From contig NZ_CP099546.1 in NCBI RefSeq assembly GCF_023973145.1, forward strand, positions 248,001-312,000: DNA of 64,000 bases. Direction: 5' to 3'. The notes beneath the pieces are model-generated. The model was not told where the DNA came from and searched no databases. It saw only the letters and a list, made by a program, of their open reading frames with translations. Origin of the DNA: Natronosalvus vescus (GTDB taxonomy: Archaea > Halobacteriota > Halobacteria > Halobacteriales > Natrialbaceae). The translations under genes were made by a program, and so were the position numbers. Shown one piece after another: positions 3,772 to 50,706 of the stretch. The stretch's first letter is position 1. Each line of letters starts with the position of its first letter.

Positions 3772-4284
3772 TCAGGCGGACACCGAGTCGTCCTCGAGTC
3801 GCTTACGTCCTCGACATCGCCCCTCCGCGAGCGGTTCGATCTCGAACCCGAGCGATCGGTAAAACGGTCGTACACCGACGTCGAAATTCGCGGTCAGTGC
3901 GCCCTCCCGTTCGAGTGCGGCCTCCAGCAGCGCGGTTCCGACACCGCGTCCGCGAGCGCGCTTCCGGACGGCGATTGCATGGACGTGGCTCCCCTGGTCG
4001 TCGTCTCGAGCGTTCCTCCGTGCCGAGGCTGCGGTGTCGTCCTCGTCGGCGCTCGAGTCCCCTGCAGTCGTCGTCGGCTGGTCGGGGGGCTCGAGGACGA
4101 TCACGCCGACGATGGCTCGTCGCGTCTCCCCCGACCCAGTCGGCCGTTCCTCGGTCGCGACGAGAACGTCATCGGCGTCGATGCGCGCCTCGACGTTCCC
4201 TACCTCGAGCATGGCCCCGTCGACGATCCGCCTGATCTCGAGGGCGTCCTCGGGCGAAGCGACACGAACCCGTCGGCCGGTCAC
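3772..4284 (-). CDS. GNAT-family N-acetyltransferase
   Basis: The acetyl-CoA binding motif A is clear in VRKRARGRGVGTALLEAA, followed by the typical C-terminal motif FYRSLGFEIE. I chose the GTG at 4284 because it overlaps the stop of the upstream redoxin gene (GTGA at 4281-4284) and gives VTGRRVRVASPEDALEIRRI, a normal GNAT start; the same frame extended upstream is arginine-rich shadow sequence. The middle contains an acidic, Ala/Thr/Asp-rich insertion (GDSSADEDDTAASARRNARD), probably a disordered loop. GNAT enzymes move an acetyl group from acetyl-CoA to an amine; the acceptor is unknown. It is translationally coupled to the redoxin gene. Confidence 0.82.
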   Translation of the reverse strand: MTGRRVRVASPEDALEIRRIVDGAMLEVGNVEARIDADDVLVATEERPTGSGETRRAIVGVIVLEPPDQPTTTAGDSSADEDDTAASARRNARDDDQGSHVHAIAVRKRARGRGVGTALLEAALEREGALTANFDVGVRPFYRSLGFEIEPLAEGRCRGRKRLEDDSVSA

Positions 4285-4847
4285 GGCTGCCCCTCGTCGT
4301 CGTGGCGGCTTTGCTGGCACGCCTCGACGGCCGCGAGTAGGTCGTCGACGGTGGGTCGATCCCACCGGGACTGGCCGTGGTGTTCGTAGACGGTCTCGAG
4401 GGCACCCGAGTCCCGGACGTCGAGGACGAGGGCGGCGGGCATCCGTCCGAGGAGATCCGAGTGCTGGCCGAGGGAGCCCAACCGAACGTGCTGGTCGACG
4501 GCGTCACCCGCGTTCGCCTCCGGGTCGGCACAGATCGGATAGGGGAGTTCGTAGGCGTCTTGCCACTGCTCGACGCGTTCGCGTGGCTCCGGGACGATCG
4601 AGACGACCTGAGCGCTCCGGGCCACGAACTCGTCGTAGCGGTCGGCGACGGCTCGCACCTGTCGCCGACAGTTGCCACAGTGGTGGTCGCGGTGGAACAG
4701 GACGACGATGGCGTCGTAGGCGGGCGTCTCCTTGCCGGTCGTCGTCGGGTCGGGCGGCGTGACCGTTTCGGCGACGCCGCGCAGCCGGAGTGGATCGGGG
4801 CCGGGGCCGACGTTTTCCAGGGCGAGGTCGAGGAGGGTCGTTGACAT
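4281..4847 (-). CDS. Peroxiredoxin / AhpC-TSA-like thioredoxin-fold protein
   Basis: This 188-residue protein starts at the ATG at 4847 (MSTTLLDLALENVGPG). The thioredoxin-fold core YDAIVVLFHRDHHCGNCRRQ carries a CxxC pair (Cys57, Cys60), and the later segments VVSIVPEPRERVEQW and LPYPICADPEANAGD follow the redoxin pattern of an extruded helix and a cis-Pro-containing strand. Such proteins reduce peroxides or exchange disulfides in the cytoplasm; no signal peptide is present. The stop overlaps the start of the GNAT gene. It is transcribed divergently from the metallopeptidase gene at 4944, with a 96-bp shared promoter region between them. The redoxin fold is well supported; the exact substrate is not. 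Confidence 0.8.
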   Translation of the reverse strand: MSTTLLDLALENVGPGPDPLRLRGVAETVTPPDPTTTGKETPAYDAIVVLFHRDHHCGNCRRQVRAVADRYDEFVARSAQVVSIVPEPRERVEQWQDAYELPYPICADPEANAGDAVDQHVRLGSLGQHSDLLGRMPAALVLDVRDSGALETVYEHHGQSRWDRPTVDDLLAAVEACQQSRHDDEGQP

Positions 4848-7415: not shown

Positions 7416-10400
7416 ATGCGGGAGGAGGACGAACAGTACTTCGAGCGCCTCGAGTCCCGCCTCGACGAGGCGTTCGACGTCGCCGAGACGGCCAAACAGC
7501 GCGGTGGCGACCCCAAACCGGAGGTCGAGATTCCGGTCGCCAAGGACATGGCCGACCGGGTCGAGAACATCCTCGGTATCGAGGGAGTCGCCGAACGCGT
7601 CAGAGAACTCGAGGGCCAGATGTCTCGCGAGGAGGCCGCCCTCGCCCTCGCGGAGGACTTCGCGGACGGGTCGGTCGGCGAGTACGAGACGAAAGCCGGG
7701 AAAGTCGAGGGCGCGGTACGAACGGCCGTCGCACTGCTCACCGAGGGGGTCGTCGCGGCCCCGATCGAGGGGATCGACAAGGTCGAGATCCTCACCAACG
7801 ACGACGGAACCGAGTTCGTCAACGTCTACTACGCCGGGCCGATCCGATCCGCGGGTGGGACGGCTCAGGCGCTGTCGGTGCTCGTCGCGGACTACACCCG
7901 CGCGCTGGTTGGTCTCGAGACCTACGACGCTCGTAAAGAGGAGATCGAACGATACGCCGAAGAGATCGGCCTCTACGACAAGGAGACTGGCTTGCAGTAC
8001 TCCCCGAAGGATAAAGAGACGAAATTCATCGCCAAACACCTCCCGATCATGCTCGACGGGGAGGCGACGGGCGACGAGGAGGTCTCGGGCTTTCGGGATC
8101 TCGAGCGCGTCGACACCAACTCCGCCCGGGGCGGGATGTGTCTGGTGATGGCCGAGGGGATCGCCCTCAAAGCGCCCAAGATCCAGCGCTACACCTCCCA
8201 ACTCGAGGAGATCGACTGGCCGTGGCTCCAGGATCTGATCGACGGGACGTACTACGACGACGCGGCCGGTGCGGACGAGGACGAGGATGTCGACGGGGAC
8301 GTAGCGGAGGGGGACGCCAACGAGAGCGACGACGGCGAGGACGACGATGCTGTGGACGCGAACGACGAACCCGAAGAAGACCGCCCGACCGGCCCTCCGC
8401 GAGTCGAACCCGCCACGAAGTTCCTCCGGGATCTCATCGCCGGTCGACCCGTGTTCTCACACCCGTCCGCGAAGGGTGGTTTCCGGCTTCGCTACGGTCG
8501 CGCACGTAACCACGGCTTCGCGACCGCGGGGGTCCACCCCGCGTCGATGCACCTGCTCGACGACTTCCTCGCGACGGGTACCCAGATCAAGACCGAACGC
8601 CCCGGCAAAGCCGCCGGGGTCATCCCCGTCGACAGCATCGAGGGTCCCACAGTTCGGCTGGCCAACGGCGACGTCCGCCGAATCGACGACGTCGAGGAGG
8701 CCCTCGAGGTCAGAAACGGAGTCGAGAAGATTCTCGACGCTGGCGAGTACCTCGTCAACTACGGGGAGTTCGTCGAGAACAACCACGCCCTCGCCCCGGC
8801 GTCGTACGTCTACGAGTGGTGGATCCAGGATCTCGAGGCCGCCGGGGCCGACGTCCAGGCCCTCGAGGACGACCCCAGAATCGACCTCGAGCACCCGACC
8901 GCAGACGAGGCCCTCGAGTGGGCTCTCGAGTACGACGCACCGATCCACCCGGCGTACACCTACCAGTGGCACGACCTCGGCGTCGACGCCTTCAGTACGC
9001 TCGCCGACGCCGTCAGCGACGCCACCATCGAGAGCGACACGGGCTCGCTGGTCCTCGAGTACACCGACGCGACCAGGGACGCCCTGGAAGCCATCGTCAT
9101 CGAACACCGCCAGCGCCCCGACCGCCTCGAGATCGACGACTGGCTTCCGTTCGTCCGGACGCTTGGCATTGCGGTCGACGACGGGGCCGAGACCGGAGCC
9201 GAGGCCGACGCTCAGGAACCGACGCTCGAGCGCACCTGGGCCGACGACGACCTCAGCGAGCGCGCCCGCACCTGGGGCGTCGAGACAGCGGGCGACAACG
9301 CCATCGAGGCCGTCAACGAGGTCGCCCCGTTCGCCGTCCGCGAGTGCGCCCCGACGCGCATCGGAACCCGGATGGGTCGGCCCGAAAAATCCGAACGCCG
9401 GGATCTCAGCCCGCCGGTACACACCCTGTTCCCCATCGGCGAGGCGGGCGGTGCCCAGCGTAACGTCGCCGACGCGGGCAAGTACGCCGAGACGATGTCG
9501 GACACCCCCGGCGTCATCGAGGTGCAGATCGGCCGCCAGCGCTGTGAGACCTGTGGAGAGGAGACCTACAAGAACCGCTGCCCCGAGTGCAACGCTCGAA
9601 CGGTGCCGGACTACCGCTGTCCCGACTGTGACACCCAGATCGATCCCGACGAGGCCGGCCGCGTCGAGTGTGGACACTGCGAACGCGAGGCAACCTGCGT
9701 CGAGTTCACCGAAATCGACGTCCACGCGGCCTACCGCGACGCCCTCGAGGCCGTCGGCGAGCGCGAGAACGCCTTCGAGATCCTCAAGGGCGTGAAAGGG
9801 CTGACGTCGACGAACAAAATCCCCGAACCCATGGAAAAAGGCGTCCTCCGGGCGAAACACGACGTCTCGAGTTTCAAGGACGGCACCGTCCGCTACGACA
9901 TGACCGACCTCCCCGTGACGTCGGTGCGCGCCAGCGAACTCGACATTACGGTCGGCCAGCTCGAGGCGCTCGGCTACGAGGAGGATATCCACGGCGAACC
10001 GCTCACCCACGAGGATCAGTTGGTCGAGCTCAAGGTGCAGGACATCGTCCTCTCGGATGGCGCGGCCCAGCACATGATGCAAACGGCCGCCTTCATCGAC
10101 GACCTCCTCGAGCAGTACTACGGCCTCGAGCCGTTCTACGAACTCGAGGATCGACAGGATCTCGTGGGCGAGCTGGTGTTCGGGATGGCACCCCACACGT
10201 CTGCGGCAACTGTCGGGAGGGTGATTGGTTTCACGAGCGCAGCGGTCGGATACGCTCATCCGTTCTTCCACGCTGCGAAACGCCGGAACTGCTTCCATCC
10301 GGATACAGAGATTCGGTTCGAAGACGAGTCCGGACGAACTCGAGCGGAGACAATCGAGCAGTTCGTCGACTCGAGGCTGACCGACCCGCACACGGACGAT

Positions 10401-13127
10401 TTCGGCACCTTCGTTCAGGAACTCGACGGATCCGTGGCGGTACCGTCGATAACCGATTCAGGAGCGACCGTTTCGAAACCCGTTACCGCCGTTTCGAAAC
10501 ACCCGGCTCCCGATCACCTCATCCGCGTGGAAACGGAGCATGGTCGAACGCTAACAGTCACCCCAGATCACACGATGGTCGTGTGGAACGGCGGCCTGGA
10601 GCAGGTGCCGGCGAGCGATCTTGAGTGTGACGATGCGATCCCCGTCCCGCCAGAACCGGGAATATCTCGGGATCAGTCGGTCTCTCAGACGACTGACGGC
10701 GGTCGTCCGGAGGTTGATATAGTAGCACGAGCCCAGATTGTGCCATCCGATGTGGAATACACCTACTGCCTCACGGTTGCAGAGACCCACACGCTCGTCG
10801 CCAATGAACTATACGCGAAGCAATGTGACGGTGACGAGGATTGTGTAATGTTGCTTATGGATGGGCTGCTCAACTTCTCGCGGTCGTATCTCCCGGATAA
10901 ACGAGGGGGTAGCGTCGCCGAAGACTCTCGACTGATCGCGTTCGACCCCGATGGCAACCTTCGGTTTATGACGTTCGACGAGTTCTGGGACGAACTCGAG
11001 TTACCGATCGAGATCGACGGAAAGTTTCACAAGAAAACGGTTGCACTCGAGAGGTGGACGACCTACACCTTCGACGAGAATCACGAGGCGTCCCCACAGC
11101 CAATCGAGAAGGCGATTCGATATCGGGCCGACGACGACGAAGAACTCCTTCGAATACGAACCCAGTTCGGTCGGGAGATCGAGATCACGACCGACCACAG
11201 TCTGTTCCGATACAAAGACGGCATTGAGGAGGTGGCCGGTTCGGATCTCGAACCGGGCGAGTTGATCGTCGCCCCGCGTACTCTCGACGTCGATCCAATC
11301 GAGACGAAGATCGACGTCCTCGAGTGTGTCGATGACCCGTATGTCCTTATCGACGACGCTCACGAGGAGTGGCTTTCGGAGGTCTGGAACGACGCCGAAC
11401 GGGGGAGCGACACACGAGTCGCGTTCGATGGTGGACTTTCATACCGACTTCGGAAAAAGAAGGTCGATCGATCCACACTTGAGGCGATCGAGAGTGAACA
11501 CGGTGAGCGGACGCTTCCCCACGAATGCGCGGTTGGCTGGATGGGGTCGTCCGACTGTATCGACCGGTACATCGAGGTCGATGCGGACTTCGCGTGGTTA
11601 CTCGGCATGTTCGTCGCCGAAGGGTCACTATCGGCGAGTCGACCGACGATTTACAACGCTGACGAGGAGTTGGTCGATCGCGTCGTCGAGGCTACGGAAG
11701 CAGTGATCGGCTGTGAACCAAGTGTTCGGTGGTCGAACAAATCGTACGAGATCGCGTTTCCTGCCGTGTTCTTTGACGTGCTGTACGACCTCGGATTTAA
11801 AAAGCGCGAGTCGTATAACTCGAGCGAGAAGGTTGTTCCAGATTGTATCCTCCGAGCTGAAAGGGACACTGTGCTTGCCTTCCTTCGCGGATTCATCGCG
11901 GGCGATGGCTCCGAACCGAGCGACGACAACTACACGGGGATTAATTTCCACACCACCAGCGAGGACGTCAAAGACGGCATCGTATTCCTGTGTCACAGAT
12001 TGGGTCTCGTTGCGAACATCTCCCGTCGGGAACGCGACCCGCCCCGGCAGCCGATATTCGACGTGAATGTGTCCGGTGGCGCCTACGACAATCCGCTTCG
12101 GCGGATACTCGACGGCGACGATCCCTACCATCCGAAGAGTCTCGTGGTCACGATTCCTGACGAGTTGATGGCGATTCGTGAGATGGATGTCGAGAGAGTG
12201 AAACAGATCATCCCGAAGTACCTCAAACGACGGGAAAACATCTCACTCGAAAAACTTCGCGAAATCGTCGACGAACTCGACGCTGGAGACCTCTCCGTTG
12301 AAGCGGAACGAAACCTCGAGGCGATCCGCCCGCTGGTCGATGGTGATTTGTCGTACCTTCGGATCACGTCGATCGAGCGCGTCGAGTACGACGGGCATCT
12401 CTACGACCTTCAGGTCGGCGGCGAACCGATATTTACGTCGAACTGGCTCTATGCCCACAATTCGATGGACGCCCCCCTCGTCATGTCCTCGAGAATCGAT
12501 CCCTCCGAGATCGACGACGAGGCCCACAACATGGACGTCGTTTCGCGGTACCCTCGCGAGTTCTACGAGGCCACCCTCGAGCAGGCAGACCCCGGCGCGG
12601 TCGAGACCCTTGTCGAGATCGCCGAGGACACCCTGAGCACCGACGAGGAGTACACCGGCTTCGAGCACACCCACGACACCACCGACATCGCCATGGGGCC
12701 GGATCTCTCGGCGTACAAGACGTTGGGCTCGATGATGGACAAGATGGACGCCCAGCTCGAGTTAGCGCGCAAACTCGAGGCCGTCGACGAGACCGACGTC
12801 GCCGAGCGGGTGATCGAGTACCACTTCCTGCCCGACCTGATCGGCAACCTGCGGGCGTTTTCGCGCCAGGAGACGCGCTGTCTGGACTGCGGGGAGAAGT
12901 TCCGGCGAATGCCGCTGACGGAGGTCTGTCGGGAGTGTGGCGGTCGGGTCAACCTTACGGTGCACAAGGGCTCGGTGAACAAGTACATGCAAACCGCGAT
13001 CGAGGTCGCCGAGGAGTACGGCTGTCGCGATTACACGAAACAGCGCCTGGAAGTGCTCGAGCAGGCTCTCGAGAGCATCTTCGAGAACGACAAAAACAAG
13101 CAGAGCGGCATCGCGGATTTCATGTAA
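7416..13127 (+). CDS. polC: DNA polymerase II (family D) large subunit DP2, with two inteins
   Basis: The precursor is 1903 residues; removing the two inteins leaves a 1208-residue DP2, the normal haloarchaeal size. I start at the ATG at 7416 (MREEDEQYFERLESRLDEAF); upstream codons in the frame are non-conserved. DP2 is the catalytic subunit of the archaeal replicative polymerase and pairs with the exonuclease subunit DP1. Visible landmarks: the N-terminal block YYAGPIRSAGGTAQALSV, an acidic linker at residues about 284-324, a multi-Cys zinc region at about 709-756 (CETCGEETYKNRCPEC), the catalytic motif CDGDED right after intein 1, the MDAPLVMSSR block after intein 2, and a C-terminal zinc site (CLDCGEKF and CRECGG). 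Both inteins sit in the active core, so the protein should be inactive until splicing. Confidence 0.96.
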   Translation: MREEDEQYFERLESRLDEAFDVAETAKQRGGDPKPEVEIPVAKDMADRVENILGIEGVAERVRELEGQMSREEAALALAEDFADGSVGEYETKAGKVEGAVRTAVALLTEGVVAAPIEGIDKVEILTNDDGTEFVNVYYAGPIRSAGGTAQALSVLVADYTRALVGLETYDARKEEIERYAEEIGLYDKETGLQYSPKDKETKFIAKHLPIMLDGEATGDEEVSGFRDLERVDTNSARGGMCLVMAEGIALKAPKIQRYTSQLEEIDWPWLQDLIDGTYYDDAAGADEDEDVDGDVAEGDANESDDGEDDDAVDANDEPEEDRPTGPPRVEPATKFLRDLIAGRPVFSHPSAKGGFRLRYGRARNHGFATAGVHPASMHLLDDFLATGTQIKTERPGKAAGVIPVDSIEGPTVRLANGDVRRIDDVEEALEVRNGVEKILDAGEYLVNYGEFVENNHALAPASYVYEWWIQDLEAAGADVQALEDDPRIDLEHPTADEALEWALEYDAPIHPAYTYQWHDLGVDAFSTLADAVSDATIESDTGSLVLEYTDATRDALEAIVIEHRQRPDRLEIDDWLPFVRTLGIAVDDGAETGAEADAQEPTLERTWADDDLSERARTWGVETAGDNAIEAVNEVAPFAVRECAPTRIGTRMGRPEKSERRDLSPPVHTLFPIGEAGGAQRNVADAGKYAETMSDTPGVIEVQIGRQRCETCGEETYKNRCPECNARTVPDYRCPDCDTQIDPDEAGRVECGHCEREATCVEFTEIDVHAAYRDALEAVGERENAFEILKGVKGLTSTNKIPEPMEKGVLRAKHDVSSFKDGTVRYDMTDLPVTSVRASELDITVGQLEALGYEEDIHGEPLTHEDQLVELKVQDIVLSDGAAQHMMQTAAFIDDLLEQYYGLEPFYELEDRQDLVGELVFGMAPHTSAATVGRVIGFTSAAVGYAHPFFHAAKRRNCFHPDTEIRFEDESGRTRAETIEQFVDSRLTDPHTDDFGTFVQELDGSVAVPSITDSGATVSKPVTAVSKHPAPDHLIRVETEHGRTLTVTPDHTMVVWNGGLEQVPASDLECDDAIPVPPEPGISRDQSVSQTTDGGRPEVDIVARAQIVPSDVEYTYCLTVAETHTLVANELYAKQCDGDEDCVMLLMDGLLNFSRSYLPDKRGGSVAEDSRLIAFDPDGNLRFMTFDEFWDELELPIEIDGKFHKKTVALERWTTYTFDENHEASPQPIEKAIRYRADDDEELLRIRTQFGREIEITTDHSLFRYKDGIEEVAGSDLEPGELIVAPRTLDVDPIETKIDVLECVDDPYVLIDDAHEEWLSEVWNDAERGSDTRVAFDGGLSYRLRKKKVDRSTLEAIESEHGERTLPHECAVGWMGSSDCIDRYIEVDADFAWLLGMFVAEGSLSASRPTIYNADEELVDRVVEATEAVIGCEPSVRWSNKSYEIAFPAVFFDVLYDLGFKKRESYNSSEKVVPDCILRAERDTVLAFLRGFIAGDGSEPSDDNYTGINFHTTSEDVKDGIVFLCHRLGLVANISRRERDPPRQPIFDVNVSGGAYDNPLRRILDGDDPYHPKSLVVTIPDELMAIREMDVERVKQIIPKYLKRRENISLEKLREIVDELDAGDLSVEAERNLEAIRPLVDGDLSYLRITSIERVEYDGHLYDLQVGGEPIFTSNWLYAHNSMDAPLVMSSRIDPSEIDDEAHNMDVVSRYPREFYEATLEQADPGAVETLVEIAEDTLSTDEEYTGFEHTHDTTDIAMGPDLSAYKTLGSMMDKMDAQLELARKLEAVDETDVAERVIEYHFLPDLIGNLRAFSRQETRCLDCGEKFRRMPLTEVCRECGGRVNLTVHKGSVNKYMQTAIEVAEEYGCRDYTKQRLEVLEQALESIFENDKNKQSGIADFM
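10290..10823 (+). other. Intein 1 of DP2 (mini-intein, 178 residues, C-terminal Gln)
   Basis: The insertion splits RRN from CDGDED, the polymerase catalytic motif. It begins with Cys (CFHPDTEIRF, splicing block A), has a block B TxxH motif in TVTPDHTM, and ends TYCLTVAETHTLVANELYAK followed by Gln and then Cys of the C-extein. The last two residues are Lys-Gln, not the usual His-Asn. No LAGLIDADG or HNH motif is present, so this is a mini-intein that has lost, or never had, a homing endonuclease. Inteins at this DP2 site are known in other archaea, and as I recall some with C-terminal Gln splice. Boundaries are exact by comparison with the uninterrupted DP2 motif. Confidence 0.92.
10911..12461 (+). 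other. Intein 2 of DP2 (517 residues, LAGLIDADG homing endonuclease)
   Basis: The insertion separates PDKRGG from SMDAPLV. It starts with Ser (SVAEDSRLIAFDPDG), has block B TxxH in EITTDHSLF, and ends LQVGGEPIFTSNWLYAHN before the +1 Ser, the canonical His-Asn end. Between the splicing halves lie two dodecapeptide endonuclease motifs, WLLGMFVAEGS (residue about 1392 of the precursor) and FLRGFIAGDGS (about 1490), each with the acidic metal-binding residue. This is a full-length intein that may still be mobile: the endonuclease would cut intein-free polC alleles at this site. Only 29 extein residues separate it from intein 1. Confidence 0.94.
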
Positions 13128-41050: not shown

Positions 41051-42262
41051 ATGTCTAACGAGCGATCAATTTACGACGAACTCGGTGTTCCGACGGTTAT
41101 CAACGCGGCAAGTACGAAAACGCGGATCGGCGGCAGCCTCATCCGACCGGAAGCCGTCGAGGCCATGGCCAGCGCGTCGGAGTCGTTCGTTCGCATCTCG
41201 GACTTGCAGGCACGCGCCAGCGAACTCATCGCCGAGGCGACGGGGGCGGAAGCCGGATACGTCGCAAGCGGGGCAGCGGCGTGTCTGACCCTCGGAACGG
41301 CCGCGTGTATCGCCGGCACCGATCTGCACGTGATGGATCAACTCCCACACGCCGAGGACGCGGCCAACGAGGTCGTGATGCCGCGCACGCACCGAAACGG
41401 CTACGACCACGCCATCCGCCTCGGTGGCGGGCGTATCGTCGACGTCGGCAACAACGACAATCACCTCGGAACCGGGTCGGTCAACACCGAACTCTGGGAG
41501 ATCGAGGCCGCGATCACCGACCAGACTGCCGCCGTCGCGTACATGCAGAAGTCGTACTCGCAACCGGAGCTCTCGGACGTGGCCGACGTGGCCCACGAGC
41601 ACGACGTCCCGGTCATCGTCGACGCCGCCGCCGAGTTGCCTCCGGCGAAGAACCTCTCGCGGTTCATCGACGAGGGTGCCGATCTCGTCGTATACAGCGG
41701 CGGCAAGGCGATTCGTGGGCCGCAGGCCTCGGGTATCCTCGCCGGCCGAGGGGACCTCATCGAGTCCGCGGCGATGCAACACCTCGACATGCACGTCGCC
41801 GAGTCGGTCTGGAAGCCGCCGTCCGAGCTGATAGATCTCGAGCGCTTCGACGGCGTCCCGCGACAGGGCGTCGGTCGCCCACTCAAGGTCGGCAAGGAGG
41901 AACTCGCGGGACTCATTCGAGCGCTCCAACTGTTCCTCGAGGAGGATCACGACACTAACGCGCGCGAGTGGGCCGCCCGCACGAAGACGATCGCATCGGC
42001 GCTTCGCGAGGAGCCGAGCCTCTCGATCACCGTTACGGAGGGCGAAAAGACGGCCGTGGCACCCGAATCGTTCGTTCGGATCGACCCGGACGTCGCCGGC
42101 ATCGACGCGACGACCCTCGTCGCAAAGCTACGCCAGGAGGATCCGCGGGTGTTCGTCGGCCCCGATCACCTCCACGAGTCGGCGTTCACCATCAATCCGA
42201 TGTGTCTCACCGACGAGGAAGCCGAGTACGTCGTCGACCGCGTTCGATCGTACCTCGAGTGA
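41051..42262 (+). CDS. SelA-like / DgaE-like PLP-dependent enzyme
   Basis: The 403-residue fold-type-I PLP enzyme starts MSNERSIYDELGVPTVINAA. The PLP Lys is in LVVYSGGKAIRGPQASGILA, and the cofactor Asp in VPVIVDAAAELPP. The Gly-rich phosphate-binding region is YVASGAAACLTLG. It resembles the SelA-like group that includes D-glucosaminate-6-phosphate ammonia-lyase (DgaE), which makes 2-keto-3-deoxy sugars. That would agree with the sugar-type enzymes around it. It is not a true selenocysteine synthase, since the N-terminal tRNA-binding region of SelA is missing. The promoter has TTATTTT at about 41010. Confidence 0.85.
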   Translation: MSNERSIYDELGVPTVINAASTKTRIGGSLIRPEAVEAMASASESFVRISDLQARASELIAEATGAEAGYVASGAAACLTLGTAACIAGTDLHVMDQLPHAEDAANEVVMPRTHRNGYDHAIRLGGGRIVDVGNNDNHLGTGSVNTELWEIEAAITDQTAAVAYMQKSYSQPELSDVADVAHEHDVPVIVDAAAELPPAKNLSRFIDEGADLVVYSGGKAIRGPQASGILAGRGDLIESAAMQHLDMHVAESVWKPPSELIDLERFDGVPRQGVGRPLKVGKEELAGLIRALQLFLEEDHDTNAREWAARTKTIASALREEPSLSITVTEGEKTAVAPESFVRIDPDVAGIDATTLVAKLRQEDPRVFVGPDHLHESAFTINPMCLTDEEAEYVVDRVRSYLE

Positions 42263-44707: not shown

Positions 44708-46411
44708 TCACTCATCGAGCAGTTCCAGCACGTTCTCGCTCCGGACGCGATTTTTTTCCGTCTCGGTGACCGGCAGGTGTTTCGTGTAGTTGTAGAACGA
44801 TTCGAAGTACTTGAGCGGGAGCTTAGATCCCATCACAAGGTGATCGGTTCCGATCCCCTCGACGATATCACGACCCTGGGTCTGGGTCCAGTAGCAGAAC
44901 AGGTCGTCGATGATGAGCAGCGTCCGCCCCGAGCGGATCGCGTTGTGCAGCCGGACGTCTTGCCGGTTAACGGTCGTCGTTTCCCTGATGATGCGAGCGC
45001 CAGCGGACCAGGCACCGGCGACGACGACGTCCGCTTCCGGAACGGCCAGGAGGAGATCGATCAGTTCGTCGATCTTCCCCTCGTTTGCGCGCCAGTGCTT
45101 GGCCTGTCCCATCCCCTCGAAGTGGCGTAGTTCGACCCGAGGATGGCGCCCGCGCTGATCCTCGAGAGCCGGGACGATCATCGCCGGCACGTCCAGATCC
45201 ACACAGTGTCGGAGCAGCGCTTTGGATTCGGGGGCGTCGATCTCGTAGTCGTGATATGCCGGGAACAGACGAACGCCTCGCATCCCCAGCTCTTCGACGC
45301 AGTGGCGCAGATCCGCCTCCCAGCTCGGGAATGTCGGATCGATCGTGGCGAACGGAATTAGCCGATCCCCGTGGCCCTGGATGTCGTCCACGAGTTCGTG
45401 GTTCCCGTGTTGTGGGTCGCGGTAGAACAGGGCCTCGAGCGAGGACACGACGGCTCTGTCGACGCCGTTTCGATCCATCGTCTCGAGCAGATCCTCGGCC
45501 GATGCGTCGAACGGGTGGAACGGCCATCTACCGATGTAGGCGTTCGCGTCGACGATTTCTTCTTCGTAGGGTTCGTCAAGCGCCGCGAATCGATCGGTCT
45601 TTTGCTCGATCCGCCTCTCCCGTTCGTCGTCGGAGAGGCGGTTTTCGACGCCGTCGTGGAGCAGGTGTTCGAAGTTGTACGCGATCGTCGCCCGCTCGGC
45701 CGGCGGTAAGTTCGCGGCGTCGAGTTTGCCAGCGCACACCGAGAGCCACGTGTCGGTTCCGAACAGCAACCGGTCGACACCCAGGTACTCCGCGGCTAGC
45801 TCGAGCTGTCCAACCTCACAGTTACTCCCGCTGAGGTCGAGATACACGTTGTCGTGCGGGGCGATGTTCTTGATACGGTATTCCCAGTTTCCGCCCGCAC
45901 TGATGTGTCCCGAGATCAACGTGAGGTCGGGATACTGCGTCGCGAGTTCGACGACGTCCTCGGAGCGGGCTTCGCTCGGCCGTTCACTGGGGTACGGTTC
46001 CTCGTTTTGCATTACGTGGGAAATAATCGGCACGTCCATGTCGATCGCCGCTTCGACGAGTGGTGCAAACTCCGGATCCGTGATGTTGATTTCCGTCCCG
46101 AGGAAGTGGTGTTTGAGTCCGACCAGCCCGTCCTCCTCTACAGCTCGTCGGAACTCCGCGACGCTCTGCTCGCCCAGTGCGGGGTGGATTCGTGCCCAGC
46201 CGTAGAAGAGATCGGGGTGTTCTTCGACGAATTTGGCGACAGTTCGGTTGTGCTCTTTGCACGCGTCGACGGTGTCGCCGATCTCCCCGATGAGACAGGT
46301 TCGATCGATCCCGAGGACATCGGCCTCGCGACGGAACTGCTCGGCTCGCTCGGCGCGCTTCTTGGGCGTCGAAACGTCCTGCGTCCACACGTGGAAGTGA
46401 CAGTCGATCAT
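44708..46411 (-). CDS. Tandem amidohydrolase protein with a degenerate second domain
   Basis: The 567-residue protein is an internal duplication of the amidohydrolase-2 barrel. Domain 1 (residues 1 to about 275) has the metal residues His5/His7 (DCHFH), His169 (ISGHISAGG) and Asp220 (LLFGTDTW). Domain 2 (about 285-567) repeats the order but not the ligands: DANAYIG at 288, VVAGAWSAG at 464-471, and LVMGSKLP at 525. Domain 2 is therefore probably structural or regulatory, while domain 1 should be active. The gene follows the oligopeptide-type permeases on the same strand (about 120 bp), so its substrate may be what that transporter imports. It starts at the ATG at 46411. Confidence 0.85.
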   Translation of the reverse strand: MIDCHFHVWTQDVSTPKKRAERAEQFRREADVLGIDRTCLIGEIGDTVDACKEHNRTVAKFVEEHPDLFYGWARIHPALGEQSVAEFRRAVEEDGLVGLKHHFLGTEINITDPEFAPLVEAAIDMDVPIISHVMQNEEPYPSERPSEARSEDVVELATQYPDLTLISGHISAGGNWEYRIKNIAPHDNVYLDLSGSNCEVGQLELAAEYLGVDRLLFGTDTWLSVCAGKLDAANLPPAERATIAYNFEHLLHDGVENRLSDDERERRIEQKTDRFAALDEPYEEEIVDANAYIGRWPFHPFDASAEDLLETMDRNGVDRAVVSSLEALFYRDPQHGNHELVDDIQGHGDRLIPFATIDPTFPSWEADLRHCVEELGMRGVRLFPAYHDYEIDAPESKALLRHCVDLDVPAMIVPALEDQRGRHPRVELRHFEGMGQAKHWRANEGKIDELIDLLLAVPEADVVVAGAWSAGARIIRETTTVNRQDVRLHNAIRSGRTLLIIDDLFCYWTQTQGRDIVEGIGTDHLVMGSKLPLKYFESFYNYTKHLPVTETEKNRVRSENVLELLDE

Positions 46412-46532: not shown

Positions 46533-47558
46533 TCAGCTGTGCAAGTCTGCGTCGAGGTCGTCTTTTTCAGACGCCGTCTTCTCGTGTCGCGCCCGGAGTC
46601 GCGGGTTGAATATCCGGTCGAGTCCCTGTGACAGCAAGATGAGCGACATCGACATCAACAACAGGACGATCATCGGAGCGAACAACCAGTGGCCGGCGTG
46701 ACCGGGGTTCGACACTGCGGAGCCGGTGTTGTACGCCTCTTCCATCATGACACCCCAGTTGAGCCCGCTGGCGGGCAAGACGCCGATGAAGTACAGCCCC
46801 ACCGACTGGAAGATCACGCCGCGAGCGGCCCCGGCGGAGCGGATCGTAATGTACGGCATGAGCTGTGGGAGGACGTCGTCCCACAGGATCTCACCGGAGT
46901 TGCGTCCCATCGCCCGACCGGCCTCGATGTAGGACTCCTCACGGATCGTCAGCACTTGCGAGCGGAGCGCTCGCGCCAGGCCCGGCCAGTTGTCGATCGC
47001 CAGGATGAATCCGACCATCCACGGGCTGTCCGGTGCGAAGATCGCGACGATCACGATCACGAGCGGGAGGCCGGGGATACAGATGACGACGTCGCTGATC
47101 CCCATCAGTACCTCGTCCCAGTAGCCGCCCTTGTAGCCGGCAACGATACCGATTACGACCCCGATGCTCATGGCGACCACAGCACCCGAGAAGGCGATGA
47201 TGAGCATATCGGGCGTCGCGTGGATCAACTGCGGGAGGATCGCACGGCCGCCGTAATCGGTGCCGAGTGGATACGACAGACTCTGGAAGGGTGGGGCATA
47301 TCGCGGATGGTCGCCGACACGCGGATACGGCGTGAACCGAACCACGACCGTGCCAACGAGTACGAAGAGGGCGATCATGGCGATCCCAAAGGATGCGCGC
47401 CAGTCGGATCGGATAATCCGGTACGGCGTGAAGAGGTGGATGTCTAACCATCTGTACAGGCGTTCTTTTCGTGTGAGCGGATCGGCGTCCGACACGATGT
47501 TGAAGACGCTCGATTCGTCCGTGGGACGATCACCAGCGTTTGGATCAGTGTTACTCAT
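46533..47558 (-). CDS. dppC: Oligopeptide/dipeptide-type ABC permease (DppC-like)
   Basis: The 341-residue protein has the long DppC-type N-terminus with a first segment (FGIAMIALFVLVGTVVVRFT), the DppC landmark HPRYAPPFQSLSYPLGTDYG, and five further segments. The EAA-like loop is EESYIEAGRAMGRNSGEILW. It lies 12 bp downstream of the DppB-type gene. It forms half of the membrane channel of a peptide-type importer; such systems also carry nickel, opines or oligosaccharides, so peptide is not certain. Confidence 0.92.
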   Translation of the reverse strand: MSNTDPNAGDRPTDESSVFNIVSDADPLTRKERLYRWLDIHLFTPYRIIRSDWRASFGIAMIALFVLVGTVVVRFTPYPRVGDHPRYAPPFQSLSYPLGTDYGGRAILPQLIHATPDMLIIAFSGAVVAMSIGVVIGIVAGYKGGYWDEVLMGISDVVICIPGLPLVIVIVAIFAPDSPWMVGFILAIDNWPGLARALRSQVLTIREESYIEAGRAMGRNSGEILWDDVLPQLMPYITIRSAGAARGVIFQSVGLYFIGVLPASGLNWGVMMEEAYNTGSAVSNPGHAGHWLFAPMIVLLLMSMSLILLSQGLDRIFNPRLRARHEKTASEKDDLDADLHS

Positions 47559-47570
47559 TGCAGTGTCTCG

Positions 47571-48599
47571 TCAGTAGCTCTCCTTGTTTTCGGTACTCGC
47601 GCGTGGATCGATGAACCCGTAGGTGAGATCGGCGATCAGGATACAGAACACCGTGATCACGGTGAAGAAGATGAACGCCCCCATCAACAGCGGATAGTCG
47701 TTCCGGATGAGCGCGTCGAACGTGTACCAGCCGACGCCCGGGTACGTGAAGATCCGTTCCATGATGACGCTGCTGCTGAAAATGCTGCTGAGTCCGATCA
47801 TGAAGCCCGTGTACAGTGGCAGGACGGCGTTCCGTCCGATGTACCGGATCGAGATCCGGCTATCTTTCAATCCGCGAAGCTCGGCTACGCGGAGATAATC
47901 CGATCCCATGACCCGAATACTGTTCGCTCGCATCGCCAGTGCGCCGGATCCGAATCCGACGACCATTCCGGAGAGAATCGGGAGCGTGCCGTGGTGGAGA
48001 ACCCCTTGCATGAAGTAGAGGTTAAATCCGGGAATCGCGTCCGGATACGCCCGGCCGCCAGTGGGGAACCACCCGAGTCCGAACGCCAGCGTCGCGAGCA
48101 TGAGGACGGCGGCGACGTAGTAGGGGATCGAGTCGAGGATGATGATGGCGACCGTCATCACCTTGTCGAAGCGACCTCCTTCTTTGAAAGCCATCACCGC
48201 CCCGAGGACGATCGTGATGGCGAACCCGAGCAACAGTCCGTAGACGCTCACAAAAATAGACCACGGCATCGCACGAAACAGGATGTCGAAGACCGGCTCA
48301 CCGTAGTAGTACGACATCCCGAAGTCCTGGTAGAGGAGAACGTCTCGCATATATTCGTAGTAGGCGATGTGGATCGGTTGGTCGGGCGTAATTCCCGTGT
48401 GAAACTCGATCAATCGGTCGATCTCTTCGGGATCCCGGCCGGCTCCACCCGACGCGAAGTCCCGTTCACCGCTCATGTATTCCTGGCGCAACGCTTCAAC
48501 TGGACCCCCTGGCATAAGGCGATAGAGCACGAACGTCAGGCTCGTCGCCGCAAAAATCGTCACGATGGCCTGACCGACGCGCTTCGCGAAGTACCTCAT
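47571..48599 (-). CDS. dppB: Oligopeptide/dipeptide-type ABC permease (DppB-like)
   Basis: Starts MRYFAKRVGQAIVTIFAATS at the ATG at 48599. The N-terminal signature FVLYRLMPGGPVEALR is typical of DppB/OppB proteins. Six membrane segments follow, and the cytoplasmic loop GSDYLRVAELRGLKDSRISI is the ATPase contact. The 343-codon gene sits between the binding protein and DppC and is co-transcribed with them. Confidence 0.92.
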   Translation of the reverse strand: MRYFAKRVGQAIVTIFAATSLTFVLYRLMPGGPVEALRQEYMSGERDFASGGAGRDPEEIDRLIEFHTGITPDQPIHIAYYEYMRDVLLYQDFGMSYYYGEPVFDILFRAMPWSIFVSVYGLLLGFAITIVLGAVMAFKEGGRFDKVMTVAIIILDSIPYYVAAVLMLATLAFGLGWFPTGGRAYPDAIPGFNLYFMQGVLHHGTLPILSGMVVGFGSGALAMRANSIRVMGSDYLRVAELRGLKDSRISIRYIGRNAVLPLYTGFMIGLSSIFSSSVIMERIFTYPGVGWYTFDALIRNDYPLLMGAFIFFTVITVFCILIADLTYGFIDPRASTENKESY

Positions 48600-48771
48600 C
48601 GTCGATATACGTTTTGGGCCATCCGCTATATGTGTTTTGGTGCCACACCCCACTTGAAACCTCGAGGCGTCAGCGGATTTTCCCGTACGAGTTGCTTTGT
48701 CGTCACGTCACTGTGAGGCGGCTGGCTTCGTCATTCGATGCAGCCAAAAAACTCAATCGTCGTTGTCGGGA

Positions 48772-50706
48772 CTACTGCTCGCGTCCCTGCATCACGCCGT
48801 AGCGGTGTACCAGGTGCTGGGTCTGGTCGGGAACGTCGTGGTACAGCGGATCGTCGTTCGGGAACTGCCAGCTTTCGGTGTCCGCCCACAGGGCGTTGAC
48901 CTGCGGGAACAGGTCGGGCCGGGGAAGGTCGTAGTTGAAGTACGTCACGAAGTCCTGGATGATCTCGTGGGATCGTTCCTCGTCCTGAGTGCTGATGAAC
49001 TCGTCCCAGAGTTCGAGGAGGTTGATCTCCCTTGTCGAGCCCTCGAGGAAGATGTCGCTGGGATCTTCGGGGATTTCGACGACGATGGGTCGGCCGTTGT
49101 TCGGTGACTCGGTGAGTCCTTCGTCTAACCACTGCGTGTGGTCGTCCGTTCCGGGCGTGTACAGGTGCAGGAAGAACGGGTTGATCGGCGAGAAGTAATC
49201 GCGCGGATCGCCACGTCCCCAGCCGGTCGCCCACAGCGTTACGTCGACGTCGCCGGTGCCGTCCTGCAGGTTCGGCGTCAGGTAGCCGAAGTCACGCGAG
49301 ATCATCTCCGGTTCGAAGCCGAACTCGTCCCACCGGTCGTAGATCGCGCTCGCGAGCGTGCTGAACAGGCTTCCGGTCGGCGGGGCGAACGTGAACTCGA
49401 CGGTTTCGCCGTCGCCGTTCTCCCAGAGGCCGTCCCCGTTGCGTTCGTACCCACCCTCGTGCATGAACTCCTCCGCGAGTTCTTCGTCACCCGCGGTCGG
49501 GTAGTCGTAGAGCGAGTCGAGGAAGTCACTGTCGAGGAACCGTTGTTCGTCGGCTTCGGCCATTCCGCTCTGGGTTTGTTTGACGAAGCCGCCCTCTCCC
49601 TGCCAGAAGTTGACGAGGAAGTCGAGATCAAGCACGGTCAACAGCGCCCGGCGAACCCACCGGTTCGCGATGTGATCGTTCAGGTACCGGAAGTAGAGGT
49701 TGCGCGAGGCGAGCGCCTCGGTCTCGGTAATCGTCTGTAAGTGATCCGGGGAGACGTCACGAATCGATTCGGGGAACGTCCCGGTACCGATGTCGATGTA
49801 GTCGTTGAGGATCAGTTCGTCACAGGCCGCCCCGTCGCAGGTGTGTGCGACCAGCTCGTCGTAAGCGAACGCGTCGGCGTAGGGGTGGTTCTCGTTCTTC
49901 TCGAACGTCACGGACGTCTCGTCGTACGTGACCGGCATCCACACCGAGGAGCTCATTCCCTCGTCGATGAACTCCTGCATCGTGATGCGTTCGTTCGCGA
50001 TTTCGGCGGACACCTCGGCGCGTTCGTCTTCGGTGCTCACGTCCTCGAGTTTCTCGAGCCACTCCTGTTCGCGCCCCTTGGCGAGTGCGAGCCGTTCGTC
50101 GGGATAACCCTGCACCATAGGGTTCATCGGATCCTTCGAGACGGCTTCCCACTCCCACTCGTTTAGCAGGTTGACCTCCTCGGCCCAGCGCTGATCTTCG
50201 GATTGCTGGAGGAGCGTCACCATCGTTTGCGTGTAGAAGTCTTCGGCGGTGATTGGGTCGCCGTTCGCCCAGTAGAACTCGTCCTCTTTGACTTTGTAGT
50301 GGTACGTCCGGGTATCGGGATCGTAGTACGTCCCGTCGCCGTCGTAGATCATCCACACCGGTTCGTCCATCGCCTGCGTGAAGATCGATTCGTACTCGCG
50401 AACGATCCAGTGGTAGCCGGTGTTCAAGGCGAACCGGTTCATGTTCACCTCCTCGGGCGTGTTACCGTCCATCACGTCGACGGTGGAATCCATGAGGTCT
50501 TCCGGGGAGAGTTCGGACGTATCCTCGACCTCGTCGGATGTGCCGTTCCCGCCGTTGCCGTTTCCGTTCCCGACACCGTTCCCTTCGCTTGGACTGCTTG
50601 CACACCCGGCCAACCCGGTTGCCACACCCGCCGTCGTCAACGCGAGCAGTTGGCGCCTCGACACCCCTCGCTTATTAATCTCTAATCGCCGCTTGTCGCT
50701 TGTCAT
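48772..50706 (-). CDS. Peptide-type solute-binding lipoprotein (SBP family 5, Tat exported)
   Basis: The 644-residue protein begins with a Tat signal (KRGVSRRQLLALTTAGVATG) and lipobox Cys35, then a Gly/Asn-rich linker. The mature part has the family-5 pattern YHYKVKEDEFYWANGDPITA followed by AEDFYTQTMVTLLQQSEDQ, and near the C-terminus VDVTLWATGWGRGDPRDYFS. It is longer than DppA (about 535 residues), with an insert of about 70 residues in the first third (EWEAVSKDPMNPMVQGYPDE and following), as in many archaeal homologues. It delivers substrate to the DppBC permeases. An AT-rich promoter lies at about 50730-50760, and the ATG is probably leaderless. Confidence 0.9.
   Translation of the reverse strand: MTSDKRRLEINKRGVSRRQLLALTTAGVATGLAGCASSPSEGNGVGNGNGNGGNGTSDEVEDTSELSPEDLMDSTVDVMDGNTPEEVNMNRFALNTGYHWIVREYESIFTQAMDEPVWMIYDGDGTYYDPDTRTYHYKVKEDEFYWANGDPITAEDFYTQTMVTLLQQSEDQRWAEEVNLLNEWEWEAVSKDPMNPMVQGYPDERLALAKGREQEWLEKLEDVSTEDERAEVSAEIANERITMQEFIDEGMSSSVWMPVTYDETSVTFEKNENHPYADAFAYDELVAHTCDGAACDELILNDYIDIGTGTFPESIRDVSPDHLQTITETEALASRNLYFRYLNDHIANRWVRRALLTVLDLDFLVNFWQGEGGFVKQTQSGMAEADEQRFLDSDFLDSLYDYPTAGDEELAEEFMHEGGYERNGDGLWENGDGETVEFTFAPPTGSLFSTLASAIYDRWDEFGFEPEMISRDFGYLTPNLQDGTGDVDVTLWATGWGRGDPRDYFSPINPFFLHLYTPGTDDHTQWLDEGLTESPNNGRPIVVEIPEDPSDIFLEGSTREINLLELWDEFISTQDEERSHEIIQDFVTYFNYDLPRPDLFPQVNALWADTESWQFPNDDPLYHDVPDQTQHLVHRYGVMQGREQ

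Follow-up and report, generated by a model that had tools for sequence, protein, structure and literature searches.

A haloarchaeal two-barrel amidohydrolase combining an intact metal site with a second barrel that lacks all metal ligands

The window, the stretch of 64,000 nucleotides of Natronosalvus vescus that was analyzed as a whole, harbors on the minus strand a gene for a 567-aa protein in which Pfam found the Amidohydro_2 domain (PF04909) in two stretches. When tested separately, both barrels scored above the curated cut-off of 26.4 bits. NCBIfam has no family for the 567-aa fusion, which is single-copy in the 3.84 Mb host genome.

44708..46411, minus strand: gene for the two-barrel amidohydrolase fusion; open frame for 567 aa with ATG start, two PF04909 stretches
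45578..46411, minus strand: barrel 1 (aa 1-278), metal site intact, ligands 22/22; alone against PF04909 E 3.4e-24, 86.5 bits, profile positions 1-276 of 289
44711..45577, minus strand: barrel 2 (aa 279-567), five metal ligands all replaced; alone against PF04909 E 7.4e-13, 49.3 bits, profile positions 20-147 only (first half of the profile)
46533..50706, minus strand: genes before the fusion, probably in the same transcription unit, as judged from Pfam (SBP_bac_5 and BPD_transp_1) and coordinates

The two halves of the protein are homologous to each other. Profile-profile comparison resulted in P 3e-12 when 22 alignment rows were used, two of them from the same protein, and in P 3.8e-8 with 13 sequences. 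As controls for the 22-row alignment, the reversed profile gave P 0.58, and the best value in 20 column shuffles was P 0.025. Fold models from 4 sequences were too poor for packing, both for the whole protein (mean pLDDT 52, pTM 0.43) and for barrel 2 alone (mean pLDDT 48.5, pTM 0.53). From the barrel 2 model only the strand order was used, with three strand ends shifted by hand by 1-2 residues.

Upstream of the fusion, all on the minus strand, lie genes for a family-5 binding protein (48772-50706) and two ABC permeases (47571-48653 and 46533-47558). The gaps from the binding protein through both permeases to the fusion are 118, 12 and 121 bases. We scanned 20 stretches around fusions, including that of the window (positions 35001-56000). 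Ceramidase-like proteins were present in 10 of them, xylose-isomerase-like barrels in 9 and Gfo/Idh proteins in 8; ABC ATPases, sulfatases and beta-helix proteins each occurred in 7, DUF4432 in 6 and permease homologues in 5. The neighborhoods resemble catabolic islands that serve sugar-related and possibly sulfated compounds. The window also encodes, at 41051-42262 on the plus strand, a PLP enzyme that is related to DgaE/SelA and scores far below the DgaE cut-offs; homologues of it are found near the fusion in two further genomes (G104 and G270).

The relatives of the fusion protein are haloarchaeal. Full-length two-barrel homologues were detected in 9 of 125 genomes of the family (13 places). 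Considering the best few candidates per genome, they were present in at least 11 of 391 genomes of the class (at least 12 places) and in at least 13 of 392 genomes of the order (at least 16 places); the three genome draws overlap. Halovivax sp. KZCA124 (G702) carries four fusions of the forward order, two different ones of which lie head to tail (L120:7303-8988 and 9149-10834) and are 45% and 60% identical to that of the window. Three scans of viral contigs revealed no relatives. No full-length standalone barrel 2 was seen among the best 6 candidates per genome in 392 genomes of the phylum, and among these candidates no match to the barrel 2 profile, apart from four fusions, passed position 141 of 285. 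The conservation counts given below refer to an alignment of 22 non-identical proteins from 16 haloarchaeal genomes, some of them closely related, which includes an annotated Halomontanus plasmid copy.

Barrel 1 has retained its metal site in all aligned homologues. H5, H7, K100, H132, H169 and D220 were each conserved in 22/22, and the ligand set of HxH, His, His and Asp, as in ACMSD, was complete in every sequence. This agrees with an earlier note on this DNA, according to which the first half keeps the site.

46391..46405, minus strand: strand 1 of barrel 1, D3-x-H5-x-H7; 22/22
46112..46114, minus strand: strand 4 of barrel 1, K100; 22/22
46016..46018, minus strand: strand 5 of barrel 1, H132; 22/22
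45905..45907, minus strand: strand 6 of barrel 1, H169; 22/22
45752..45754, minus strand: strand 8 of barrel 1, D220; 22/22

Barrel 1 would be an ordinary metal-dependent Amidohydro_2 enzyme, its metal content being predicted from these ligands. The solved structure closest to it by sequence is 3ij6, an uncharacterised metal-dependent hydrolase with a single barrel (profile E 3.8e-13).

In barrel 2, none of the five ligands was kept in any homologue (0/22). The places matching H5 and H7 are occupied by Asn in all 22 sequences and by Tyr, Phe or Cys (15/6/1), respectively. At the place of K100 we found Arg or Lys (14/8), which makes it the sole place of the ligand region that stays basic. The place of H132 holds Val, Cys, Ile, Thr or Ala (14/3/2/2/1), with V413 in the window protein, and the places of H169 and D220 hold Gly, Asp or Asn (7/8/7) and Lys, Gln, Arg or Gly (9/10/2/1). 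The Asn at the first-His place (N290), which the earlier note did not mention, is thus itself invariant. A bacterial single-barrel family may also have Asn at this place. The internal pairings proposed earlier, DCHFH with DANAY, SGHISAGG with VAGAWSAG and GTD with GSK, were reproduced, and the His of strand 5 (H132) lies opposite V413; the pairing of HxH with DANAY derives from the MAFFT alignment and the motif, as the hhalign alignment begins after that point.

Loss of HxH alone is not rare. A strict HxH was missing in 12 of 62 unpaired single barrels, so that this loss alone does not mark a dead barrel; a lenient pattern for the Asp of strand 8 was matched by 62/62 of them. The distinguishing mark of barrel 2 is the loss of every ligand. 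As judged from its sequence, barrel 2 is a relative of Amidohydro_2 and not a metal enzyme of that ligand type. Together with the homology of the halves, the 0/22 count confirmed the description of a tandem amidohydrolase whose second barrel has no metal ligand, and domain 2 was ligand-free in all 22 homologues with the same order of domains.

Other residues of barrel 2 are strictly fixed. Ten of 24 checked places never varied (N290, N337, W364, H387, Y389, D418, R420, H423, W468 and P532), and Y330, R331, Y386, D388, E417 and D503 were each conserved in 21/22. Place 466 held Asp in 8/22 and Asn in 7/22.

45536..45550, minus strand: strand 1 of barrel 2, D288-A-N290-A-Y292 replacing DxHxH; N290 22/22
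45245..45256, minus strand: strand 4 loop, YHDY 386-389; H387 and Y389 22/22, Y386 and D388 21/22
45143..45166, minus strand: strand 5 loop, LEDQRGRH 416-423; D418, R420 and H423 22/22
44993..45010, minus strand: strand 6 loop, W468 to R473; W468 22/22, R473 as Arg/Lys/Glu/Gln 19/1/1/1 and aligned with the trans-acting Arg of ACMSD
44903..44908, minus strand: strand 7, D502-D503; D503 21/22
44816..44830, minus strand: strand 8, GSKLP 528-532 replacing GTD; P532 22/22, K530 as Lys/Gln/Arg/Gly 9/10/2/1

In the 13-sequence set, polar invariants were enriched in the beta-alpha loops, where such a barrel normally has its catalytic end (16/33 versus 37/152 polar residues overall, P 5e-4, with strands from the low-confidence model and a single loop definition, last strand residue to +8). 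The solved structure closest to barrel 2 by sequence, 3nur (Amidohydrolase, profile E 9.3e-10), matched best over positions 55-137 of 285, a stretch that ends before the LEDQRxRH loop, and the search of solved structures with the barrel 2 profile returned no relative spanning the whole barrel.

Purifying selection acts on both barrels. In 11/11 pairs of homologues dN was well below dS, with dN/dS ranging from about 0.06 to 0.27 in barrel 1 and from about 0.11 to 0.35 in barrel 2 (dS was near or above 1 in many pairs). The ratio was higher for barrel 2 in 10 of the 11 pairs, indicating that barrel 2 is somewhat less constrained. Taken together with the invariant alternative residues, the purifying selection led us to reject a simple decay of barrel 2; on the sequence level its changes look like replacement rather than decay. 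In a quick tree of 96 rows, with long branches and one sequence present twice, the 12 rows of barrel 1 all grouped in a single clade, and so did the 12 of barrel 2. The two clades were not sisters, and the tree therefore gave no support for a recent internal duplication.

The pairing of a live and a ligand-poor barrel was found again in other arrangements. Chromosome 2 of Halovivax sp. KZCA124 encodes a 541-aa protein (L119:5832-7457) with swapped order: its first barrel is without the ligands (YDLDVW, FGSHLP) but has the HDY motif of barrel 2, and its second barrel is intact. This first barrel matched barrel 2 with 2.3e-15 versus 6.6e-8 for barrel 1. In both Halovivax and Halomontanus rarus (L147:5001-6626) the swapped fusion lies directly before a forward fusion, and since the two swapped proteins are 98.9% identical, we counted them as one lineage. 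A search of 382 genomes of the class for the swapped fusion gave no full-length match, and it is known from Halovivax and Halomontanus only.

Separate gene pairs were collected by following matches and do not represent a census. In each of the two pairs of Nonomuraea gerenzanensis, the ligand-poor gene precedes the intact gene; the genes of one pair overlap by 4 bases, and the first ligand-poor gene retains one His of HxH. In Subdoligranulum variabile a ligand-poor and an intact gene are one base apart. On the Klebsiella plasmid CP067510.1, PTS genes separate two short amidohydrolase genes, one intact and one ligand-poor (L091:813-1538 and 4007-4732), and the ligand-poor protein keeps the Lys and the Asp of strand 8. 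This cluster also holds a gene of the ADP-ribosylglycohydrolase family. A pair with a 4-base overlap in another haloarchaeon (G276) is an imperfect fit, its second gene lacking HxH and the Asp and keeping the Lys and two His. Two archaeal pairs from other classes of the phylum (L069:1126-1992/2025-2732 and L085:457-1155/1363-2187) do not fit cleanly, both barrels being largely intact; in these pairs one barrel has Glu for the His of strand 5. Searching plasmids with three ligand-poor partners yielded no further clear pair. In three haloarchaeal plasmids (L096, L097 and L098) an amidohydrolase gene follows a DUF6282 gene, and the L097 protein keeps HxH and has MAAEHSS where the Asp motif of strand 8 is expected.

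Four of six ligand-poor partners were closer to barrel 2 than to barrel 1, those of Subdoligranulum and G276 being the exceptions, and four of five intact partners were closer to barrel 1, with one tie. This resemblance is weak evidence of common descent, because the missing His alone push the scores towards barrel 2. Because live and metal-free barrels recur together, the metal-free one probably functions as a partner rather than being a relic.

A possible role for such a partner is suggested by the ACMSD-type decarboxylases, which, like the fusion, are PF04909 members. The ACMSD monomer is described as inactive because the neighboring subunit supplies the substrate-binding Arg that completes the site (PMC9021598, PMC11650718). 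In the human enzyme this Arg is R235, 11 residues after H224 in HGGGAFPFTVGR (published numbering). Via a haloarchaeal ACMSD-like protein, R473 of barrel 2 aligned with the trans-acting Arg, the residue being Arg in only 19/22 homologues; when barrel 1 was aligned to the same protein, R179 fell off this column. We did not class the fusion as ACMSD: ACMSD chains gave no clear match in single-sequence comparison (E about 0.5) and reached 2.6e-4 with the barrel 1 profile over positions 46-134. Two identical live barrels make up the ACMSD homodimer, whereas the fusion chain combines one live and one metal-free barrel.

On the basis of the trans-acting Arg and the R473 alignment, we propose barrel 2 as a stand-in for the second subunit. 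Barrel 2 would have given up its metal site in favor of a polar pocket that is conserved and metal-free, and would occupy the place of the second subunit of ACMSD-type homodimers, in a predicted packing with the catalytic ends facing each other. Both barrels would then act as one catalytic unit, and barrel 2 may lend residues that bind the substrate at the metal of barrel 1. Candidates for donation are R473 and the YHDY, LEDQRxRH and W468 loops. From the neighborhood, the substrate is perhaps an imported sugar-related compound. We assign a probability of about 0.45 to the reading that barrel 2 replaces the second ACMSD-type subunit and helps to build the substrate site of barrel 1. Points against this reading are that place 473 is Arg in no more than 19/22 homologues, that R179 of barrel 1 falls off the trans-Arg column, that dN/dS is mostly higher for barrel 2, and that the pairs L069, L085 and G276 fit imperfectly.

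The invariant residues of barrel 2 can be explained in a different way. According to the main rival reading, barrel 2 would be a second enzyme that needs no metal and has a new active site of its own, making the protein bifunctional, perhaps for successive steps on the same compound. The amidohydrolase superfamily has a metal-independent member, the lactonase LigI. The ten invariant places among the 24 checked include His, Asp and Arg, residues fit for acid-base catalysis and for binding acids, the polar invariants sit, according to the model, at the catalytic end, and H387, D418 and H423 could equally form an active site of barrel 2. However, a partner role explains the recurring association of metal-free with live barrels no less well, and a full-length standalone barrel 2 was lacking among the best 6 candidates in each of the 392 phylum genomes; we regard a separate enzyme as rather unlikely. 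A metal bound at a different site of barrel 2, by residues such as H387, D388, E417, D418, H423 and D503, is considerably less probable. Alternative conserved ligands in domain 2, which the earlier note had set against its own reading, were in part present in the sequence, as H387, D418 and H423 are conserved in 22/22, D388, E417 and D503 in 21/22, and Asp or Asn is frequent at place 466. Against such a site stands that the classical ligand places are all unused.

Barrel 2 might instead serve as a scaffold, a stabilizer or a regulatory ligand sensor with a pocket that takes no part in the chemistry of barrel 1. The higher dN/dS of barrel 2 in 10/11 pairs is in line with this, and the pseudo-dihydroorotase of Pseudomonas is reported to be inactive and nonetheless needed for ATCase activity (PMC7053772). 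The same source describes ligand-less barrels of the superfamily kept as working partners, as proposed for barrel 2, in Pseudomonas ATCase and in fungal multifunctional proteins, and of the systems we found this is the nearest precedent for a ligand-less amidohydrolase-type barrel that is needed by its partner. There the partner is the unrelated enzyme ATCase, whereas barrel 2 is joined to a live barrel of its own family; Pfam gave no match to dihydroorotase, reporting PF04909 alone at E 0.01 or better, and named no ATCase among the neighboring genes of the window. The strict polar conservation at the catalytic end exceeds the needs of a scaffold, while a sensor would need it, and we consider this group of explanations improbable, somewhat more so than a separate enzyme. 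The reading of barrel 2 as a relic that is decaying after a recent internal duplication would account for the loss of all metal ligands and is very improbable in view of its dN/dS of 0.11 to 0.35, its invariant alternative residues and the separate, non-sister clades of the quick tree.

The earlier note had suggested a pseudoenzyme domain that regulates the active one or shares a site with it. A partner function fits the absence of ligands in 22/22, the purifying selection and the recurring pairing. The term pseudoenzyme is unproven, since with its conserved alternative residues domain 2 could be a metal-free or a differently liganded enzyme.

We found no description of fusions of a live and a metal-free amidohydrolase in the open-licence literature. 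More tentatively than for barrel 2 itself, we suggest that two-part amidohydrolases form a widespread class that has no name so far, whose live metal barrel would function only in company with a dedicated metal-free partner contributing part of the substrate site. In several bacteria the two barrels would be encoded by neighboring genes, and in haloarchaea at least two fusion events would have joined them, in one order and in the reverse. In the annotated records examined, neither kind of barrel carries a more specific label than "amidohydrolase" or "amidohydrolase family protein". Under this shared label a required partner would be overlooked, and an assay of one gene of a pair could fail because the other is missing. 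If the pairing is obligate, it would explain the strictly conserved non-metal pocket of the second barrel. It would also offer a ready asymmetric system in which the contribution of the second subunit of ACMSD-type dimers can be studied, as mutations can be placed independently in either barrel of the single chain.
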